Positions 51,940 to 64,000 of a DNA stretch of 64,000 nucleotides are shown piece after piece; the stretch's first letter is position 1, and every line of letters begins with the position of its first letter. The stretch spans positions 434,001-498,000 of the forward strand of contig NZ_JACFPL010000001.1 in the NCBI RefSeq assembly GCF_016102005.1. Reading direction: 5' to 3'. The stretch is from Bifidobacterium choladohabitans. GTDB taxonomy: Bacteria; Actinomycetota; Actinomycetes; Actinomycetales; Bifidobacteriaceae. Under the pieces are notes generated by a model. The model was not told the origin of the DNA. It was given only the letters and a program-made list of their open reading frames with translations, and made no database searches. The translations under genes were made by a program, and so were the position numbers.

Positions 51940-52218
51940 TCAGTCGAACTGCCTGATGCCGAGGACATCATAGAAACTCACCTTGCTATTACCACCGAAG
52001 CCCGCACCATAGCTTGTCCCATAGTATGTCCGATCCTTCTGGATCATTTTCCTGTCCTCATTATCCAGGGAATCCCAAACCCGACGTTCGGTTTCATCCA
52101 TATCATCAGTGATGGGATATCTTGACGCATAACTGCTGATCCGGTCATCAGGAATATGGTCATAAGTGGTGCAGGCCTTATCCTTGGATGCCATTTTCCT
52201 CATGAAATCCTCATCCAT
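51940..52218 (-). CDS. Small hydrophilic hypothetical protein
   Basis: 92 aa from ATG 52218 with GAGAGGAG ten bases upstream. Highly charged, with no TM or known motif; DDMDETERRVWDSL and SYGAGFGGNSKVSFYDVLG are its most distinctive stretches. Accessory-region gene, lower GC than the housekeeping block. Confidence 0.6.
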   Translation of the reverse strand: MDEDFMRKMASKDKACTTYDHIPDDRISSYASRYPITDDMDETERRVWDSLDNEDRKMIQKDRTYYGTSYGAGFGGNSKVSFYDVLGIRQFD

Positions 52219-52274
52219 AGCTATTCGTCTCCTCTCATATTTGTGTTCCTGAAGGGCATCATCCGATGACCCGT

Positions 52275-52304
52275 GGTATCACTCCCGCAGATGCGGGAAA
52301 ACAC
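52275..52304 (-). repeat. Solitary type I-E-like CRISPR repeat
   Basis: On the minus strand the segment begins GTGTTTTCCCGCATCTGCGG and ends GAGTGATACC, the pattern of type I-E repeats (GTGTTYCCCGC-N-GCGGGGATGATCC). It is unrelated to the adjacent type I-C repeat, and no second copy is present nearby. Confidence 0.5.
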
Positions 52305-52486
52305 AGCACTCTCGCGGCTAGGAACAAGCAAATGGCATAAAAACGAGTGACACTATGCCGAAGCAGCAACTCATAATCCTGTTTAGTAGGAGTACACTTC
52401 ATGGCAGTGTTCTGGCGGAAGAACTGATTTAATGCATGTTCCGATAGGAAAAGTGCTGTCTGGGTAATTCAAAGTAACGCGAGCAG

Positions 52487-52585
52487 TTTTCCAATTTAGG
52501 CTTCCGCGAAAGAGGTAACGCATTTACCGCAGATAGAGAACCATTCGTAGTGGTATTCCCAACCACAATCCCTGAAGAGAGCAAC
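52487..52585 (-). repeat. Two decayed type I-C repeats beyond the array trailer
   Basis: 52487-52519 and 52555-52585 align with the array repeat at roughly three quarters and two thirds of positions. Both separations, 52520-52554 and 52586-52620, are 35 bases, exactly the array spacer size. A still weaker copy may begin at 52427. Confidence 0.7.
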
Positions 52586-52620
52586 CCACGAAAGTCATGT
52601 CTTGAGCCCTTTCTTGATCC

Positions 52621-55600
52621 ATTTCAATCCGCGCTCCGTGAAGGGGGCGACAACACAACTGGCACGCTGTATTGCAAGGCCCTGTATTTCAATCCACGCT
52701 CCCGTGGAGGGAGCGACTCCGCACCTCGCTGACCGAGACGGTCCTGCAGCAATTTCAATCCACGCTCCCGTGAAGGGAACGACTGAAACATACTGTAACT
52801 CACTCATCCAACCGGGATTTCAATCCACGCTCCTGCGAAGGGAGCGACGCCATGGCTGGGAGATTTTCTTGAGGCTGTTCTTATTTCAATCCACGCTCCC
52901 ATGAAGGGAGCGACTGCCTGAGCTCCGGCTGAGCGTGATTAGGCAGGTATTTCAATCCACGCTCCCGTGAAGAGAGCGACGCATCCAGTTCAACATAGGT
53001 TTTCTGTCTCACAATTTCAATCCACGCTCCCGTGAAGGGAGCGACCCTGCGCGGCCTTGGCCTGGGCCGCATGCTTTGCATTTCAATCCACGCTCCCGTG
53101 AAGGGAGCGACCCGTTGAGCCTGGCAACGGTGGGCCAGGAGCCGCCATTTCAATCCACGCTCCCGTGAAGGGAGCGACAGGTGGGGCAGTCCGGCCGGGT
53201 AGGGGTCTCCGGCATTTCAATCCACGCTCCCGTGAAGGGAGCGACGCTGATCTGCATGTAGGTCATCTCGTCCATCTCATTTCAATCCACGCTCCCGTGA
53301 AGGGAGCGACTGGAGGAGTCGGGCCTGTACCTGACCGCCACCGAATTTCAATCCACGCTCCCGTGAAGGGAGCGACCAACCGAGTCCCATGCGCCTTTGA
53401 ACCAGTCGATATTTCAATCCACGCTCCCGTGAAGGGAGCGACCGGCACCGGCACCGAACCAGCCAAAGAGCGGCAAATTTCAATCCACGCTCCCATGAAG
53501 GGAGCGACAGGGCATCCACCAGCGCACCAACTACCAGGCCTGATTTCAATCCACGCTCCCGTGAAGGGAGCGACCAGCGGGGGCTTGTTCAACAGCTGGA
53601 CCGAGTGATTTCAATCCACGCTCCCGTGAAGGGAGCGACACATGTCGACCCAGGGCCTGCCGCAGGCGTTGCAATTTCAATCCACGCTCCCGTGAAGGGA
53701 GCGACCCACCCTGCCCCAAGGGTCCAACGCCACCGTTGAATTTCAATCCACGCTCCCGTGAAGGGAGCGACGTTTGGATCAAACGGTTGGGCAAGTCCTG
53801 TAGGGCATTTCAATCCACGCTCCCGTGAAGGGAGCGACCCCACGCCCAGGGCCACCTTCTGCCCCATGGCGGAATTTCAATCCACGCTCCCGTGAAGGGA
53901 GCGACACTGCCACCACTCGGCACCGTCGTACTCATGGCATTTCAATCCACGCTCCCGTGAAGGGAGCGACCAGCCGGGAGATCGTCCCTCCCGGGTCGCT
54001 CATATTTCAATCCACGCTCCCGTGAAGGGAGCGACATCAGGTCATAGAGTTTCCCATCAACCATGACAAATTTCAATCCACGCTCCCGTGAAGGGAGCGA
54101 CTTCTCAGCTTACCGGTCTCTTTGAGCCCGTATGTATTTCAATCCACGCTCCCGTGAAGGGAGCGACGAGCGTTAGTTGGGTGCGCCCAGAGGTAGTTGG
54201 CATTTCAATCCACGCTCCCGTGAAGGGAGCGACTGGGTGTCATCATCAACATAGTCACCAATGTTTGATTTCAATCCACGCTCCCGTGAAGGGAGCGACC
54301 AGATGGGCTATGTGACCACCAAGGGCGTGGTCGAATTTCAATCCACGCTCCCGTGAAGGGAGCGACATGGGCGATGTGGACGGGATGAGCATCGCCTGGT
54401 GATTTCAATCCACGCTCCCGTGAAGGGAGCGACCATCGTATTACCTTTCCCTAAACGTGTTCTTTCTATTTCAATCCACGCTCCCGTGAAGGGAGCGACG
54501 ACCCCAGCCATGCGCGGGTGCGTTTCTTGGCTGATTTCAATCCACGCTCCCGTGAAGGGAGCGACATGGCGGTACACCAATCCGGGCACCCATTGGGATA
54601 TTTCAATCCACGCTCCCGTGAAGGGAGCGACGCAGTGTAATGCTAGTTATTGCTGCGGATACGATATTTCAATCCACGCTCCCGTGAAGGGAGCGACACG
54701 TGGAGACCGGACGGCGGGCGTTCAGCGTGCCCATTTCAATCCACGCTCCCGTGAAGGGAGCGACCTTTGGACGCGCTAGCAAAGCACGCCCAACAAACAG
54801 ATTTCAATCCACGCTCCCGTGAAGGGAGCGACTCCCCGTCAGACTTGTTATTGTCGTCGGGATTGTATTTCAATCCACGCTCCCGTGAAGGGAGCGACTC
54901 GGGTGCTGCCACAAGTAGTTGGCGAAATCATCATTTCAATCCACGCTCCCGTGAAGGGAGCGACACCGCTCGCCCATCGGCCCCCCGGAAAACGACGGAT
55001 TTCAATCCACGCTCCCGTGAAGGGAGCGACTGTTCATTACTTGCCTCCTACCCTATGGATGACATTTCAATCCACGCTCCCGTGAAGGGAGCGACTCGTG
55101 GCACGCGCCCTGGCCCTGGACCAGGAGCAGATTTCAATCCACGCTCCCGTGAAGGGAGCGACCAGCGAAAATAGCTTGAGCGACACCGATCACACCATTT
55201 CAATCCACGCTCCCGTGAAGGGAGCGACCGGGCTTGGTCATGGCCTTAAACCGGTTGAGATTATTTCAATCCACGCTCCCGTGAAGGGAGCGACACTGTC
55301 ACGCCAGCCGGTCATAGGGTTCGACATCGATTTCAATCCACGCTCCCGTGAAGGGAGCGACGCCATGGCTGCTATACCGCCATCCTCGCCAGTCTATTTC
55401 AATCCACGCTCCCGTGAAGGGAGCGACAACAAACGCCACTATCCCGTTCCAAATGCCAGAATTTCAATCCACGCTCCCGTGAAGGGAGCGACTGCCTAGT
55501 ACGACCCATCCCCATGGACTGTCGAGATTTCAATCCACGCTCCCGTGAAGGGAGCGACAGACTGGGCGGATCGCGCTATCGTACAGCCAGCGATTTCAAT

Positions 55601-58600
55601 CCACGCTCCCGTGAAGGGAGCGACGCATCAGGTCAGCCACCTGGCCGCCGTCGGCAAGATTTCAATCCACGCTCCCGTGAAGGGAGCGACACCAGGGTCA
55701 CCCGCTCCGTGCCGGTCCGTCTGAATTTCAATCCACGCTCCCGTGAAGGGAGCGACCGGCAGGCCGCACAGGCAGGCCGCACACGGTGGATGTCCAGGCC
55801 AGGCCATTTCAATCCACGCTCCCGTGAAGGGAGCGACGTAAGGCTGCAGCCCGTCACCGTCGACCCCGCGTGATTTCAATCCACGCTCCCGTGAAGGGAG
55901 CGACCTCGGCCGTCCAGATATGTTTGCCGCTCTGAATATTTCAATCCACGCTCCCGTGAAGGGAGCGACGAAAAAAGCCGCCCGGGTGGGCGGCTGGATA
56001 GGTATTTCAATCCACGCTCCCGTGAAGGGAGCGACCTGGACAAGGGTGCCGGCTGGGACTGGGCCGTGACCATTTCAATCCACGCTCCCGTGAAGGGAGC
56101 GACAATGACACTCATCAGCCGTTATGCGAACTATTTTATTTCAATCCACGCTCCCGTGAAGGGAGCGACAAGGGTTCGCCCCCATGAAGCCAATCACAGG
56201 GGATTTCAATCCACGCTCCCGTGAAGGGAGCGACCCGATCATGGATAAGCTGTATGAGGCCATGTCACAATTTCAATCCACGCTCCCGTGAAGGGAGCGA
56301 CCTGTGAGTTGTTTGGGTTTGAATTGGGCGGTCACGGTATTTCAATCCACGCTCCCGTGAAGGGAGCGACTAGCTTATAAGGCTTAAACAGTATGCTAAC
56401 CAGATTTCAATCCACGCTCCCGTGAAGGGAGCGACACCTTTGGCTTGCCAAGCTCCTGAGACCGGGCATATTTCAATCCACGCTCCCGTGAAGGGAGCGA
56501 CGGCAGCTTCTATGCGATGCCCGTGGTCGACGGAGTATTTCAATCCACGCTCCCGTGAAGGGAGCGACATAAAAGCCCCGGCGAGAGCTGCTACAGAGCC
56601 TTATTTCAATCCACGCTCCCGTGAAGGGAGCGACCATTACGGGTCAGCCGGTTTTTACTAGCGGCACAGATTTCAATCCACGCTCCCGTGAAGGGAGCGA
56701 CACCCTTGCCGATATAGCCGCGGGTGTTGTCGATATTTCAATCCACGCTCCCGTGAAGGGAGCGACACCACGCTCCCGCCCGACCAACCCGCCCAGGTCG
56801 AATTTCAATCCACGCTCCCGTGCAGGGAGCGACAATCCAAACTGCGGATGTAACCGTCATCCACACTATTTCAATCCACGCTCCCGTGAAGGGAGCGACC
56901 ATGGCCGGTGTCCGGTTCCAGTCCGGAGGACGACATTTCAATCCACGCTCCCGTGAAGGGAGCGACTTTGAGATACGCAGAGTAGGAGGCAAAAGCCGAT
57001 ATTTCAATCCACGCTCCCGTGAAGGGAGCGACAGCCGCACCTTCGACAAGTCTGCGATGCCTTCGTATTTCAATCCACGCTCCCGTGAAGGGAGCGACGG
57101 ACCAAGCTCGATCAGATCGACCTTGCCGACCTATTTCAATCCACGCTCCCGTGAAGGGAGCGACCAGCCCGAGACTCCTGACGGTCCGAGTCCTTGGCAT
57201 TTCAATCCACGCTCCCGTGAAGGGAGCGACCAGATCCTCACGGCCCTTGCCGTCGCAGATGCACCAATTTCAATCCACGCTCCCGTGAAGGGAGCGACCA
57301 GCTGGATGCGGTCCCCGCTTGATGCGGTCTGATTTCAATCCACGCTCCCGTGAAGGGAGCGACTGCACCGAAAGGGACCCCCCGGCAGGCACCAGGGGAT
57401 TTCAATCCACGCTCCCGTGAAGGGAGCGACGTGAGCAGTTGGTCGTTCAGCGCAAACGTGGCTTTATTTCAATCCACGCTCCCGTGAAGGGAGCGACCGG
57501 CTGGCATGATTGGCATTGTCGCCCAATCGCCGATTTCAATCCACGCTCCCGTGAAGGGAGCGACCAGATTCGGTATGAGTTCTTTATCCGGCATGTTCAA
57601 TTTCAATCCACGCTCCCGTGAAGGGAGCGACCCTTATCGGTCTTGGCGTTCATGTCGCAGAAGATATTTCAATCCACGCTCCCGTGAAGGGAGCGACCCT
57701 CTTGTTAAGCCCAAGCTCTATGTTTTCCGTCTATTTCAATCCACGCTCCCGTGAAGGGAGCGACCTGAAAAGTAGAGTCGGCGCTTGGCAGTCACACCTA
57801 TTTCAATCCACGCTCCCGTGAAGGGAGCGACTGGTGTCCGTGTCCTTCCACATGGGGGTCATTGTATTTCAATCCACGCTCCCGTGAAGGGAGCGACTCT
57901 CCTGCACCCCCCATCTGGCGACCGACCCGCACATTTCAATCCACGCTCCCGTGAAGGGAGCGACTCTCGTCGTCCAGGACGTGGCTGGGGTCGCCCCAAT
58001 TTCAATCCACGCTCCCGTGAAGGGAGCGACCAGCAGGGAGGGGGCCTGGGACGAGCTCGGCTGGTCATTTCAATCCACGCTCCCGTGAAGGGAGCGACCA
58101 ATGGGCCAAGCCTGAGTTGCTGGCATGCGTAATTTCAATCCACGCTCCCGTGAAGGGAGCGACAAGCATCGCTCAGCAAGTAGCGGCCTGCCCATAAATT
58201 TCAATCCACGCTCCCGTGAAGGGAGCGACAGGCCGCCAAGGCGCAGACCACGGCCGACGGGAAATTTCAATCCACGCTCCCGTGAAGGGAGCGACCGAAA
58301 GGCCCAGCGTAGGCGGCGAACGTGCTGGATTTCAATCCACGCTCCCGTGAAGGGAGCGACAGTCAATATATCAAATATATTAATAATATCTAAGGGATTT
58401 CAATCCACGCTCCCGTGAAGGGAGCGACAAGGTCATACAGTTTTCCGTCAGCCATGACAAAGGATTTCAATCCACGCTCCCGTGAAGGGAGCGACGCGGC
58501 AATATCAGCGGCAGCAACCCCAGCGGCAATTTCAATCCACGCTCCCGTGAAGGGAGCGACACCCATGATGGCTGTAGCCAAGGCTGCCCCGTCATTTCAA

Positions 58601-60807
58601 TCCACGCTCCCGTGAAGGGAGCGACAAGAGGCCCGTCTAATACAGCTAAGAGAGGCTGAATTTCAATCCACGCTCCCGTGAAGGGAGCGACCCCGGATGA
58701 TACGCTACGAGGCTTTCAGGATGATTTCAATCCACGCTCCCGTGAAGGGAGCGACGGCCGTGAACTCAACCGGTTCCAAGCCTTTGAGACATTTCAATCC
58801 ACGCTCCCGTGAAGGGAGCGACCTGCCCGTACGTAGTGATCAGGTGGTTGACTTTCTCATTTCAATCCACGCTCCCGTGAAGGGAGCGACCCAGGCCTGC
58901 CGGGACCCGCTCGAGGTTGGCTTCATTTCAATCCACGCTCCCGTGAAGGGAGCGACCCAGGTGTGTACAAACAGTGTACTATTTTCCCCATATTTCAATC
59001 CACGCTCCCGTGAAGGGAGCGACGCGTCCACGATCCAACGGAAAGCGCCAGGAGCTATTTCAATCCACGCTCCCGTGAAGGGAGCGACACGCGCAAACCA
59101 TCGCAGATTGCCAAGCTGACATGATTTCAATCCACGCTCCCGTGAAGGGAGCGACTCTTGGTTGCAGCCAGTTAATAATCTTATCTGCATTTCAATCCAC
59201 GCTCCCGTGAAGGGAGCGACCGGCCCACGTAGCAGGTGTCCACGGCCGCATCCTTATTTCAATCCACGCTCCCGTGAAGGGAGCGACCTATTTTTTTCAC
59301 TTTGGCGATCCGGGTCTGCATATTTCAATCCACGCTCCCGTGAAGGGAGCGACGCCGAGCGGTGCGAGGTCATTCTCGATCTGCTTGATTTCAATCCACG
59401 CTCCCGTGAAGGGAGCGACCAGTTCTTACAGGGGCACGGTGAACGGCCATGTTGTATTTCAATCCACGCTCCCGTGAAGGGAGCGACATAAGCAGACCGT
59501 GGCCCGGTGGATGAGGGGTAATTTCAATCCACGCTCCCGTGAAGGGAGCGACCATGCTTTTGTCAAGTCTTGCGTACATGACTATTATTTCAATCCACGC
59601 TCCCGTGAAGGGAGCGACGCTTATGATCAGCTCCACATGATGATCTTGCTGATTTCAATCCACGCTCCCGTGAAGGGAGCGACCGTGTCCTACCGGCTAT
59701 TCGATCCACCACAGGCATTTCAATCCACGCTCCCGTGAAGGGAGCGACGCTTCAATTATTTGCTGTTTCGCAGACTCTGATATTTCAATCCACGCTCCCG
59801 TGAAGGGAGCGACAGGCAGTTCAGGCCTTATCAGGGACAGCGGTTTATTTCAATCCACGCTCCCGTGAAGGGAGCGACAGGCGCAAGGCGCACAGCTTAC
59901 CGCTGACGGGAAATTTCAATCCACGCTCCCGTGAAGGGAGCGACCGGGACTATTTCAGCACCTGGCGCTTCCCCCTGGCATTTCAATCCACGCTCCCGTG
60001 AAGGGAGCGACCTTTATTTGCCGTACTTACGGCATCAATGACAAAATTTCAATCCACGCTCCCGTGAAGGGAGCGACATTGGACATCAGAAAAGGCATCC
60101 AGCAACTGCATATTTCAATCCACGCTCCCGTGAAGGGAGCGACAAAACAGGAGGTAGGTACAGACATGAGTGTTGCAATTTCAATCCACGCTCCCGTGAA
60201 GGGAGCGACGATGATCCAAGTCAGTCGTGGTATCGATCAGCTTGATTTCAATCCACGCTCCCGTGAAGGGAGCGACGCCCCACCAGCGCCTAGCTGATTG
60301 ACGATCTCGTAATTTCAATCCACGCTCCCGTGAAGGGAGCGACCCTTGCACAGCCGGAATCTTGGCAAATTCCCCGATATTTCAATCCACGCTCCCGTGA
60401 AGGGAGCGACCTGCATGATGGCCCTCTTAATATCCAATTTTCACATTTCAATCCACGCTCCCGTGAAGGGAGCGACGGAGCTGAGGCAGAGACTTGCCCC
60501 TTGCTAGTGCATTTCAATCCACGCTCCCGTGAAGGGAGCGACCCACCAGCCTCGATCAAATGACCGGCATGGTGCAATTTCAATCCACGCTCCCGTGAAG
60601 GGAGCGACCAGCAGCGGCAGTATCAGACCCGAGCGGCAGTAGGATTTCAATCCACGCTCCCGTGAAGGGAGCGACGAGCGTATCGACACGATCCACGGCA
60701 GCACCAATGATTTCAATCCACGCTCCCGTGAAGGGAGCGACTCAGCTGCGGATACCGTTGTTCCAGCACGTCGTGATTTCAATCCACGCTCCCGTGAAGG
60801 GAGCGAC
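52621..60807 (-). CRISPR. Type I-C CRISPR array, 124 repeats
   Basis: 32-nt repeat; on the transcribed minus strand it begins GTCGCTCCCTTCACGGGAGC and ends GATTGAAAT. The core CGCTCCC-TTCAC-GGGAGCG is a 7-bp hairpin, and the repeat 3' end forms the crRNA 5' handle. I counted 124 repeats and 123 spacers by hand; spacers are mostly 33-36 bases, with one of 49. The leader and cas2-cas1-cas4-cas7c lie at the high-coordinate end. Repeats are identical except for six variant copies at the trailer end (52621-52980) and scattered single changes (for example 53477 and 56802). Open frames across the array are repeat artefacts. Confidence 0.98.
55970..56003 (-). terminator. Spacer that is an intrinsic terminator in the pre-crRNA direction
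   Basis: Minus strand: AGCCGCCC-ACCC-GGGCGGCT followed by a T run of five to six. This is an 8-bp GC stem with a 4-base loop and U tract, wholly inside one spacer. 73 repeats lie upstream of it (leader side) and 51 downstream. Confidence 0.82.
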
Positions 60808-61266
60808 AGCACAATGATACATCTAATGGCCAATATATGGTCGGCCTTTAATGGCCGACGACTTCCAAAAGCCTAACCCAACTACCTAGTTTCTATTACT
60901 AGTCGCGGAATTGAAACAGTGCTTTAAGTCGATAACATCACTATTCAGTTATCAAACAACCGTTCATCCGTTTCACTAAAATTCTAGCTTTTTTCGGACC
61001 TATAGCTTTCCGCTTGTAACTTTGAAAAGAACACTGACCACAAAACATGCGAAATGTAGATCGAATGTTGTCATAAAGCAACGATCTGCAGCGCGAAGGA
61101 TCAGACGAATACATGATTGCTAGAGTTTCGCATCAACTATGGTCCAGAACATCAGTCAGCATAATGCACTGTTTACAGAATTACACCAACCACTTAACCA
61201 GCATCTAATTTCAGTGACTCAAACAATACAAGACAATCAAAATCATATAACCAAAGTCCCATGATT
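60808..61266 (-). promoter_or_regulatory. CRISPR leader
   Basis: 459 bases of AT-rich non-coding DNA between cas2 and the first repeat. Next to the array are a 7-bp palindrome GTCGGCC-N6-GGCCGAC (60840-60859) and a direct repeat TAATGGCC (60823-60830, 60849-60856). It should hold the array promoter and integration anchor; no obvious -35/-10 pair could be fixed by eye. Confidence 0.8.
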
Positions 61267-61557
61267 CTATAGCATCATCACTTGATCAACAGGGATATGG
61301 CGCCTCACACCGTAGTAATGGATCCTTCGGGAATACCTGGCACCCAGGTCGTACATAATCAAGCTGTCTTCCTGAGGATTGATCAACGTCATCAGCCGCT
61401 GTTTTAGGAGCTCACGGTCTGCAGGAGTAACCACGCATTCAAACACACTATTTTGCACACGCTGCCCAAACTTCATGCACTCATGGCCGACCTGTCGCAA
61501 CCTCCTTCGGCCAGCCGCCTGGCAGGTGTCGACATCATAGGCAACAACCACCATCAT
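61267..61557 (-). CDS. cas2: CRISPR-associated endonuclease Cas2
   Basis: 96 aa, type I-C Cas2. VVVAYDVDT has the conserved Asp, and VGHECMKFGQRVQNSVFEC and DSLIMYDLG are typical. Forms the integrase with Cas1. 12 bases after cas1. Confidence 0.96.
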   Translation of the reverse strand: MMVVVAYDVDTCQAAGRRRLRQVGHECMKFGQRVQNSVFECVVTPADRELLKQRLMTLINPQEDSLIMYDLGARYSRRIHYYGVRRHIPVDQVMML

Positions 61558-61569
61558 TATTCTTCCACC

Positions 61570-62592
61570 CTACTTCCAAAACATTGGCGGATAGGCATCC
61601 ATATCCCCACGTATATATCTAGCCAGCAATAATGCCTGTGCATAAGGCACCAAGCCCCATGGCACTTTCTCCTTAAGAAAGGGGTGCATGATTTGCTCAT
61701 TTTTGCGCTTCTGCCAGGCTGAGAGCACCTGCTTCCTCCCCTTGTCGTTAAGGTAAGTTCCTCCGTTCTCTCGAATCTCGAAATCTCCGGCCTTAATCAC
61801 ATGGGTGTTGACCAGCGACAAAGCCAGCCGATCCGCAAAGACAGGGCGCAATTCCTCAACAAGGTCCAGAGCCAGCGAAGATCTGCCTGGCCTGTCTGTA
61901 TGCAAGAATCCAACATAAGGATCAAGACCAACACCTTGAAGTGCAGAACGACAATCTCCGGAAAGTAGCACGTAGATAAATGAGAGCAGGGCATTCATCC
62001 TATCCATCGGTGGCCTTCGGCTGCGCTGCTCGAAGTAGAAATCATCCTTATTTGTGAGGATGAGATCATCGAAGGCATAAAAGTAGCACTTCGCGGCCTC
62101 CCCCTCGACACCACGAACCGAATCCGCTGTTAGGCAACCGTCCAATTCCTGCAAGGCTGCCAACAGACGGGCACTCTGCTTTTTGACACGAGGCACATTG
62201 ATCCGTAAAGCGTGGTCTCGGGTAGCGCGCTCCAACACCTGTCGCGCATTGAATATCTTGCCCATGACGAACGAGGCTGCAATCGAACAGACCTCATTAT
62301 CATCATCGGCCATGTGATACTGACGGCGTCGCAAAAGCACATTTCTGTTAGCTTCTCCAAGCACAGACCCGTAGTACTTGCCCTGAGGAGAATAGAAGGT
62401 AAATGAGACTCCAAACTCATTGCACTTACCCAGCAAGGCCGGCGAGGCACCCTTGTAACTGAAGCAAAGAATAGACTCCAAGGCACGTAGAGGAATCCGC
62501 CCCATGACGCGGTCCCCCTCATTCACCACGACGTTCTCCTGCTCCAGGGAAAGGTAGGCATCCTCTGTAGTGACAAACAAGGTGTTCAACAT
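61570..62592 (-). CDS. cas1: CRISPR-associated integrase Cas1 (type I-C)
   Basis: 340 aa from ATG 62592 (a TTG three codons earlier is possible). LNTLFVTTEDAYLSLEQENVVV is the I-C N-terminus; active-site Glu in VEGEAAKCYFYAF, His and Asp in GFLHTDRPGRSSLALDLVEE. Inserts new spacers at the leader end. Confidence 0.96.
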   Translation of the reverse strand: MLNTLFVTTEDAYLSLEQENVVVNEGDRVMGRIPLRALESILCFSYKGASPALLGKCNEFGVSFTFYSPQGKYYGSVLGEANRNVLLRRRQYHMADDDNEVCSIAASFVMGKIFNARQVLERATRDHALRINVPRVKKQSARLLAALQELDGCLTADSVRGVEGEAAKCYFYAFDDLILTNKDDFYFEQRSRRPPMDRMNALLSFIYVLLSGDCRSALQGVGLDPYVGFLHTDRPGRSSLALDLVEELRPVFADRLALSLVNTHVIKAGDFEIRENGGTYLNDKGRKQVLSAWQKRKNEQIMHPFLKEKVPWGLVPYAQALLLARYIRGDMDAYPPMFWK

Positions 62593-62661
62593 CTGTCTCA
62601 ATGAATCATCGCTTCCCTCTGGTGTTTTTCCCTCAATAGACTCTCATTGCTCAAATTACCC

Positions 62662-63381
62662 CTACAGCTCTTTCAAGGTCTTTCGAATGTAGTCGGCAGC
62701 GGAAGACTTATGCACAAGCTCGGGCAGGCAGATATCCTTCAATGAGCATGCCCGACATCCCGTCTTTGGCTTCACCTTTGGAGTATGGCCTCGCCGATAA
62801 AGGTCCCGCATCTGCGCCAGATCATCGACTACCTGGGCGCGAAGATCATCGTTGAGTTCGACCACTTCACGGCGCTTGGTCCGCTGGTAGAACAATGCCC
62901 CCTGGCCAATGCTGCAGGAGAGCATTTCTTCCAAGCACATGGCTTCGCCGCACAATTGCAAACGATCAGCATTATTGACCTTGCTGGAACCATGCTTGTA
63001 CTCAATAGGATAGGGTCTCCAACGTCCTCTTCTGCCTGTCAATGCAACTCCATCCTGAGCTGCATGAAATTCGACGATGTCACAATCGCCGACCACTCCC
63101 AGCCTTCGGGAGAATACACGCAGGTCGCGCAATATCAAGGTGTCGCCACGTTTTTCTGAAGCATGGTAGTCGTGAGCACGCCGATGTTCGAAGTCTCCTG
63201 CATATGTTCTGGTGTTGTCACGCCATTGCTCCTCTATGTGGATCAATGCCCATTGGCGCTTACAGAATTCGAAATGCTGAATGCCAGACAGGGCCAGCCA
63301 TTCATCCTCAGGATATTCGGCCGGCCCTGTGGCCATGGACAAGTCCATGGAATTATCACTCATTGCAGCAGACTCAGCCAT
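62662..63381 (-). CDS. cas4: CRISPR-associated exonuclease Cas4
   Basis: 239 aa RecB-like nuclease that trims prespacers and sets the PAM. FCKRQWALIHIE holds the first cluster Cys; VVGDCDIVEF and YPIEYKHGS carry the nuclease Asp, Glu and Lys; CRACSLKDICLP holds the remaining Cys. Overlaps the cas7c stop by 8 bases. Confidence 0.94.
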   Translation of the reverse strand: MAESAAMSDNSMDLSMATGPAEYPEDEWLALSGIQHFEFCKRQWALIHIEEQWRDNTRTYAGDFEHRRAHDYHASEKRGDTLILRDLRVFSRRLGVVGDCDIVEFHAAQDGVALTGRRGRWRPYPIEYKHGSSKVNNADRLQLCGEAMCLEEMLSCSIGQGALFYQRTKRREVVELNDDLRAQVVDDLAQMRDLYRRGHTPKVKPKTGCRACSLKDICLPELVHKSSAADYIRKTLKEL

Positions 63382-64000
63382 CCACCATTTCAGTCAGTTC
63401 GACCGACTGCGGAATAGCTGAAGTATCGACGGTCACATCGTAATCCGAGAAGCTGTGCGGGGTCTCAACCTCAGGCTTATGGGCCACATGAATGCTATCG
63501 AACAGCTTGTAGGAGGGAGCATCGCCAAGATCGTTGCTGTGCTTGAAGACATAGAGCTTGCGAACAGCCATCTTGCCCCTAGCTGCGGAATGATCGAACT
63601 CGAACATGTTGAGAATAGCCTGCCAAAGCATAGCCAGGTCCTCCTCACTAAAACCGGTGGTCTTTTGTGCAAGTTTGGCATTCACATAGCCATCAGCACG
63701 GTATAGACCGTAAGGAACGATGGACTTGTTACCCATCTCGTTGTTCTTGTTCTCTTGGTCTTTTTCTGTAGTAATGGCCACCCTGGTGATGGTGACAGAC
63801 CGCGGGAAAATCGGATCGATGGACTTCGAGAATCCAAGTTGCACAGGGCCACGCACCTGGCCACAGGCCAACCCGCCTTTGACGAAGGTGGTCATCACCG
63901 CGCCAAAGGTCCTGATATCGAAGAAATTGGAGCACATATAATCGAGGATTAATCTATCCAGCTCGCCGTTTTCCTTCTTGGCCTTCTTTAAAGCCTTTCC
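63374..64000 (-). CDS. cas7c: Cascade backbone protein Cas7c/Csd2 (5' end outside window)
   Basis: C-terminal ~208 residues of the type I-C Cas7. SNFFDIRTFGAVMTT, GPVQLGFSKSIDPIFPRSVTITR and YGLYRADGYVNAKLAQKTTGFS are typical. The frame is open to the window edge (KALKKAKKENGELDRLILDY upstream of 63937). Further I-C genes (cas3, cas5c, cas8c) are expected beyond 64000. Confidence 0.95.
   Translation of the reverse strand, partial: GKALKKAKKENGELDRLILDYMCSNFFDIRTFGAVMTTFVKGGLACGQVRGPVQLGFSKSIDPIFPRSVTITRVAITTEKDQENKNNEMGNKSIVPYGLYRADGYVNAKLAQKTTGFSEEDLAMLWQAILNMFEFDHSAARGKMAVRKLYVFKHSNDLGDAPSYKLFDSIHVAHKPEVETPHSFSDYDVTVDTSAIPQSVELTEMVDG

Follow-up and report, generated by a model that had tools for sequence, protein, structure and literature searches.

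A type I-C CRISPR spacer of Bifidobacterium choladohabitans very probably captured from a phage transcription terminator, and its predicted effect on the array that holds it

Spacers are arbitrary pieces of DNA once they have been acquired, and can bring with them regulatory signals that act on the array itself. What, then, becomes of a long CRISPR array when one of its spacers looks like an intrinsic transcription terminator, inserted in the orientation in which it would act on the pre-crRNA? The question is raised by a stretch of 64,000 nucleotides from Bifidobacterium choladohabitans (contig NZ_JACFPL010000001.1, positions 434,001 to 498,000; hereafter, the window), which carries on its minus strand a CRISPR array of 123 memory pieces (spacers), with the repeats running from 60807 down to 52621; spacer 73 is the piece in question. 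The array is of type I-C, as indicated by Cas1c and Cas7/Csd2, the repeat GTCGC...GGATTGAAAT and the same-strand cas genes upstream of it. The locus is laid out as follows.

63374..64000, minus strand: cas7/csd2 of type I-C, cut by the window end (TIGR02589; 63374-63937 scanned)
62662..63381, minus strand: cas4 (TIGR00372)
61570..62601, minus strand: cas1c, type I-C (TIGR03640, over the cut-off)
61267..61557, minus strand: cas2 (TIGR01573)
60808..61266, minus strand: CRISPR leader, between cas2 and the first repeat
56004..60807, minus strand: leader-proximal part of the array, repeats 1-73
52621..55969, minus strand: distal part, repeats 74-123 plus a 31-nt repeat with an indel (51 in total)

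The pre-crRNA direction is that of the minus strand because cas7-cas4-cas1c-cas2 lie directly upstream on the same strand; across the 29 further I-C loci of Bifidobacteriaceae that have an array, the repeat keeps this orientation relative to cas1. With up to 10 mismatches allowed, 123 repeats are found, 50 of which come after spacer 73, and the extra 31-nt repeat (52621-52651), read by eye, confirms the division into 73 repeats before the spacer and 51 distal ones that an earlier note on this DNA had given. The length of the array is not exceptional, given that Bifidobacterium I-C arrays reach 155 spacers according to PMC4521832 and that a genome of the same genus contains a 229-repeat I-C array with an identical repeat (L011; G004:C6:395800-415700). 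Some spacers of that relative share 28-31 nt with the window spacers w39, w89 and w107, as if the same protospacers had been sampled, and a further I-C array, L006 (G070:C1), has an unusual repeat end, GTGTGGATCGAAA, and consists of two blocks of 59 and 85 repeats. Within the window array, the longest spacer is spacer 76 (55757-55805; 49 nt), which looks like a 36-nt spacer in which TGTGCGGCCTGCC has been tandemly duplicated and the first part of which matches the phage BigBern1 discussed below; spacer 37 (58361-58396) is strongly AT-rich and, together with the TTGAAA of the preceding repeat, makes one of the two best promoter-like sites (10/12). On the plus strand, at 55010, 59135, 59267 and 59991, there are four antisense terminator-like sites, each combining the repeat's own hairpin with a T-rich spacer end; arrays with such combinations may damp antisense transcription.

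The features of spacer 73 are these.

55970..56003, minus strand: spacer 73, 34 nt, terminator-like, probably phage-derived, in the crRNA sense
55976..55995, minus strand: terminator hairpin, AGCCGCCC ACCC GGGCGGCT, 8-bp stem, 4-nt loop
55971..55975, minus strand: T tract TTTTT, followed by C (55970) and the next repeat (GTCGC)

Read in the transcript direction, the spacer is ACCTATCC-AGCCGCCC-ACCC-GGGCGGCT-TTTTT-C, so the terminator-like spacer that the earlier note had placed at 55970-56003 is exact in both sequence and coordinates, and the minus-strand direction of the transcript supports its statement that the orientation is the one that would act on the pre-crRNA. Seven of the eight stem pairs are G-C and the T tract follows the stem immediately, as in an intrinsic terminator; there are, in fact, six consecutive T, the first of which is paired with A in the stem. 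The folding energy of the spacer is -17.2 kcal/mol (z -4.45), a value that 200 shuffles never reached, and including both flanking repeats in the fold leaves the hairpin in place. In a scan of the window for hairpins without bulges, scored by a formula of the d'Aubenton-Carafa type, spacer 73 comes out on top with 43.9 (next, 43.3). A simple consensus scan of positions 52000-61600 yielded no excess of terminator-like sites (10 found versus 9.2 expected); the case for spacer 73 is made by the strength of the single site, its T run and its homologues, not by counts.

The homologues point to a phage source. The best phage match is Bifidobacterium phage BigBern1 (host B. asteroides, honeybee gut), at 28 of 34 bases; the matching segment is intergenic, outside coding sequence, between two genes of the same direction, the downstream one of which encodes an endolysin (PHROG 291; GH25 and LysM domains) and is followed by the holin gene. 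The same hairpin and T run also lie directly before the endolysin gene in three related viral contigs (L037, 29/34; L038, 31/34; L039, 28/34), with endolysins of 84-93% identity, and in prophage-like loci of the window's genus (L137, 29/34; L138, 30/34; L140, 29/34), as well as in the prophage-like locus L139, where the best ungapped match to the spacer is 20/34. The site is thus kept at the gene boundary in BigBern1, L037-L039 and L137-L140, where it presumably ends a transcription unit, and the terminator scores of these eight homologues, 20.4 to 46.4, bracket that of spacer 73. The genus search found a relative of the endolysin in 8 of 27 genomes; beyond the genomes of L137-L140, four have partial or distant matches, among which L142 has a similar but longer hairpin with a T run (21/34) and L141 has no terminator site of this kind. 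In the alignment of nine sequences (eight distinct), the stem is paired in 92.2% of the cells, and the pairing falls to 33-55% when the partner is slid by one to three columns. Counting from the outside, stem pair 5 is A-U instead of G-C in L139, and the pair after it is U-G instead of C-G in BigBern1; the outermost A-T pair is present in only three of the eight distinct sequences, and the covariation is modest, the observed values being reached by 55 of 500 shuffles. We conclude that spacer 73 is very probably a captured phage terminator, in agreement with the intrinsic-terminator source that the earlier note had assumed.

Other spacers lead to the same phage group. Six of them (s114, s97, s77, s92, s4 and s53) match BigBern1 at 91-97%, and weaker matches are seen for s65 (80%), s116 (77%) and s76 (over its first part; 76% overall), compared to a best spacer match of 76% in a reversed-phage control. 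Because spacers match above that control, the BigBern1 group is a real source of spacers for this array. Six of the nine (s76, s77, s92, s97, s114 and s116) lie beyond spacer 73.

We consider it reasonably probable that spacer 73 comes from the terminator upstream of the endolysin gene of a BigBern1-like phage and now works as a partial to strong terminator within the array. Under this scenario, the spacer would have been taken up from the intrinsic terminator directly preceding the endolysin gene in a Bifidobacterium phage of the BigBern1 type, and its insertion would be the way round that lets the hairpin and the T run form in the pre-crRNA; partial to strong termination inside the array would then leave fewer, though not zero, crRNAs of the 50 older spacers. 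Spacer 73's own crRNA would be spoiled as well, inasmuch as the terminated transcript would lack the downstream repeat and the guide would fold on itself, so that this guide is probably poor. New spacers enter at the leader end; therefore, spacer 73 was once adjacent to the leader, and the terminator would at that time have cut off the whole older array. The effect would have been greatest at uptake, and the spacer now lies behind 72 newer ones. At present, the terminator would most likely stop some but not all transcription, and the leader in front of it may equip the polymerase against termination. Termination in vivo, its degree and any relief of it by an rRNA-type antitermination complex are what we infer, and the silencing of the older spacers is a prediction. 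If it holds, spacer 73 shows a way in which a single uptake event can down-weight all older memory.

The earlier note went further and proposed that the silenced old half of the array decays, citing the degenerate trailer. This proposal is not supported by a comparison of variant repeats, which drew on 34 parsed arrays with 40 or more repeats; the window was set apart and L025, L060 and L102, with 15% or more of the proximal repeats off consensus, were dropped, leaving a pool of 30. In the window, one of 45 repeats is variant among repeats 74-118 versus one of 73 in the proximal part (Fisher p = 1.0); the 30 other arrays have 18 variants among the 1440 repeats of their first 60% and 48 among the 844 at 60-95% depth. 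The pool includes two arrays of one locus (L006), and 13 of the 48 variants come from L061 and L064. Decay of the distal half is accordingly not supported, variants being no more frequent than in the other arrays at similar depth. The trailer itself is indeed degenerate, all five of repeats 119-123 being variant, but variant repeats are common in the last 5% of the 30 other arrays anyway (41 of 137 repeats, in 19 of the 30 arrays). The entire putatively silenced half has been kept through 72 later acquisitions. Intact distal repeats are, however, no proof of expression because repeats mutate slowly and the constraint on old ones may be weak.

Could the polymerase be equipped to pass the terminator? 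A check for antitermination in long arrays, suggested in the earlier note, directs attention to the leader, which contains, by similarity, the following element.

60939..60961, minus strand: rRNA boxA/boxC-like element GGTTGTTTGATAACTGAATAGTG, 154 nt before the first repeat, 19/23 to a 16S rRNA upstream segment

The rRNA segment, TGTGGTTTGAGAACTCAATAGTG, comes from G001 and G002, two genomes of the window's genus (a search of the window's own assembly for a 16S match found none), and we take it to be the actinobacterial boxA/boxC antitermination region. None of 200 shuffles reached the match of the window leader; in the first leader-versus-rRNA comparison its E-value was 0.004, and the leader motif was fixed from that first match, that is, chosen after the match had been seen. 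Among 30 Bifidobacteriaceae I-C leaders (that of the window and those of L006-L036), 22 have a match reached by at most 2 of 200 dinucleotide shuffles, all at -107 to -162 from the first repeat, although several of the leaders are closely related, so that the matches are not independent events; of the remaining leaders, five match more weakly, at -136 to -152, and three show no match in that region. When 59 I-C leaders from other phyla were searched with a motif of the firmicute boxA type, only 2 reached the level of at most 2 of 100 single-base shuffles. Another leader segment, TGTTCTTTTC, had been considered as boxA and was set aside, as it is absent from the 40 rRNA matches listed; on visual comparison, L011, L022 and L024 retain it and L014, L017 and L020 do not. 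Upstream of the boxA-like element, many of the I-C leaders (L006-L036) show, by eye, TTCGCACC; the window leader has CTTCGCGCTG at about 61100 and 60995, and L024 has GGTGCGAA in the opposite sense. Motifs of this TTCGCACC type are possibly promoter or adaptation motifs.

The reading that competes most seriously with a working terminator is that the terminator is read through: the boxA/boxC-like element would load a Nus-factor complex, the whole array would be transcribed and spacer 73 would hardly affect its neighbours. We regard this as possible but doubtful. The similarity and the confined position of the leader matches speak for it, as do the presence of rho and nusB in the genome and the intact distal repeats. 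Antitermination of CRISPR arrays of the boxA type has reportedly been described by Stringer et al. in 2020. Furthermore, boxA elements and antitermination complexes are reported to promote full CRISPR-array transcription against Rho (PMC7862264 and PMC10883916, both citing Stringer 2020); in Escherichia coli, the SuhB-containing rRNA complex is reported to delay termination by Rho and to lower intrinsic termination in vitro (PMC6614801), and the factors bound in rRNA antitermination probably prevent both kinds of termination (PMC10250234). Against it, the candidate element is known by similarity only, with a motif chosen after the match and a presumed position in the transcript; 8 of the 30 leaders are without a match of this quality, and the firmicute-type boxA is scarce in the I-C leaders of other phyla; and the statements of the two CRISPR reports cited here (PMC7862264, PMC10883916) name Rho, not intrinsic terminators. 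A literature search did not return, among the matches listed, a description of boxA in bifidobacterial CRISPR leaders, the main array-termination paper, which may cover it, being outside its scope. As for our preferred reading of a partial to strong terminator, the leader element could weaken the terminator. More speculatively, and quite tentatively, Bifidobacteriaceae I-C arrays in general may start with an rRNA-type antitermination signal that passes both Rho and the intrinsic terminators brought in by phage spacers; if true, this would explain why the older 51 repeats are neither silenced nor eroded despite a strong terminator, and why terminator-like spacers are equally common in the harmful and the harmless orientation (see below).

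A different question is whether the terminator comes from some element other than a BigBern1-like phage, which would concern the origin only and be compatible with any effect on the array. The hairpin core is a common terminator type, as its recurrence suggests: 27 of 27 bases are found in four Variovorax plasmids (E 4e-5, better than the 9e-3 of BigBern1), some match to the core occurs in 123 phage records, 80 of them Salmonella phages, in which 24-nt pieces are matched, and in 65 plasmid records, and the exact 25-nt core is present in two other viral contigs, L001 (which differs from the spacer at 7 of 34 bases) and L002. The occurrence of the core in unrelated replicons supports the terminator reading and, at the same time, weakens descent as judged by core similarity alone. 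In addition, an exact source with all of spacer 73 was not found in the phage, plasmid, viral-contig and genus searches; in the window's own genome, the 24-nt core occurs nowhere except in spacer 73. The I-C consensus before the protospacer is TTC; the BigBern1 protospacer is preceded by ATC. Of the eight homologues, only BigBern1, L037 and L137 have TC at this place, the other five being without it. Nevertheless, four phage records cover 80% or more of the spacer, BigBern1 being the first of them, and no other Bifidobacterium phage is among the best 20 of the 123; the phage homologues have flank and gene context in common, with 7 of the 8 bases 5' of the stem shared between spacer 73 and four of the eight homologues (BigBern1, L037, L038 and L137); and further spacers match BigBern1. 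It is from flank coverage, gene context, host and the other matching spacers, the core being found also in unrelated replicons, that we infer descent from the BigBern1-like group, and an origin in another element appears unlikely.

It is also conceivable, if quite improbable, that the terminator works and transcripts of the distal half start anew from promoters within the array, with the repeat end TTGAAA serving as a -35-like hexamer and some spacers providing -10-like ones. Between 52000 and 61600 there are 12 promoter-like sites, where shuffles give 5.0 (sd 2.8); those at 55467, 54889 and 53020 are on the minus strand and distal to spacer 73; and cryptic array promoters have been described in Sulfolobales (PMC10883916). 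However, an excess is to be expected because every repeat carries the same hexamers, and the three distal sites score only 9/12, by consensus match alone.

How often terminators are captured was assessed on 3809 unique I-C spacers, derived from 29 other Bifidobacteriaceae loci next to cas1c together with the window (1713 spacers) and from further I-C loci of Clostridia, Chloroflexota and others (2141 spacers); a fixed repeat length of 32 nt was used to cut out the spacers, which leaves some of them with a base too many or too few, and only those of 25-60 nt were kept. Terminator-like spacers (dG <= -7) number five in the sense and four in the antisense orientation, and strong ones (dG <= -10) two, spacer 73 and L102 spacer 117, and none; these counts alone are not above chance, because reversed-sequence controls are comparable (4 and 1 terminator-like; 3 and 0 strong). 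L102 spacer 117 ends in a poor TATATTT tail, which leaves spacer 73 as the only strong one with a full T run. It is this T run that sets it apart, strong hairpins being common, as its rank of 43 of 3809 by folding energy alone illustrates. Sampling of BigBern1, with 47 and 69 terminator windows per strand of 39,992 (116 in about 80,000), predicts about 5.5 terminator-like spacers per orientation, and a wider phage set, six of the nine sequences of which were fetched around endolysin genes, predicts 6.6 (4.2 at dG <= -10), or 7.9 and 4.8 next to TC. With neither clear depletion nor orientation bias, purging of terminator spacers is not visible, in a test of low power; terminators seem to enter arrays at roughly the rate expected if phage DNA is sampled at random. 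A class-wide pattern search (394 genomes each) found spacers with a T5 tract in 7 places in 6 genomes and with an A5 tract in 3 places in 3 genomes, only spacer 73 among them being, by eye, a GC-rich terminator. A literature search found, among the matches listed, no terminator-derived spacer described; the main array-termination paper was outside its scope and may cover the subject. That spacer 73 is a chance hairpin in an ordinary spacer, with neither the function nor the origin of a terminator, is very improbable: the controls just mentioned also produce hairpin-plus-T spacers, but the same combination stands at the same gene boundary in eight related phages and prophage-like loci, and its BigBern1 counterpart lies outside coding sequence.

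Spacer 73 is a natural example of a terminator that faces the harmful way within a long array, the leader of which has an rRNA-like antitermination element. It is, therefore, a good natural test, one that makes CRISPR antitermination against intrinsic terminators a one-strain experiment. In comparison with known systems, the case is one of ordinary I-C spacer uptake with an unusual payload. Like an ordinary I-C spacer against a tailed phage, spacer 73 is 34 nt long and flanked by intact I-C repeats, and its best protospacer is found in a phage of a related host with ATC before it; unlike such a spacer, it has as its protospacer a transcription terminator, in the transcript sense. The resemblance to CRISPR antitermination of the boxA type (Stringer et al. 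2020, as cited in PMC7862264 and PMC10883916) lies in an element similar to an rRNA antiterminator upstream of a long untranslated array, and the difference in that the form here is the actinobacterial boxA/boxC, recognized by similarity in Bifidobacteriaceae I-C leaders, whereas there a function against Rho is reported. Finally, premature termination has been proposed to enrich new crRNAs in long arrays, and crRNA declines in the 3' half of Sulfolobales arrays (PMC10883916). The effect of spacer 73 would likewise be polar and favour the newer spacers but would differ in coming from a single, sequence-defined stop within one spacer, in a bacterium.
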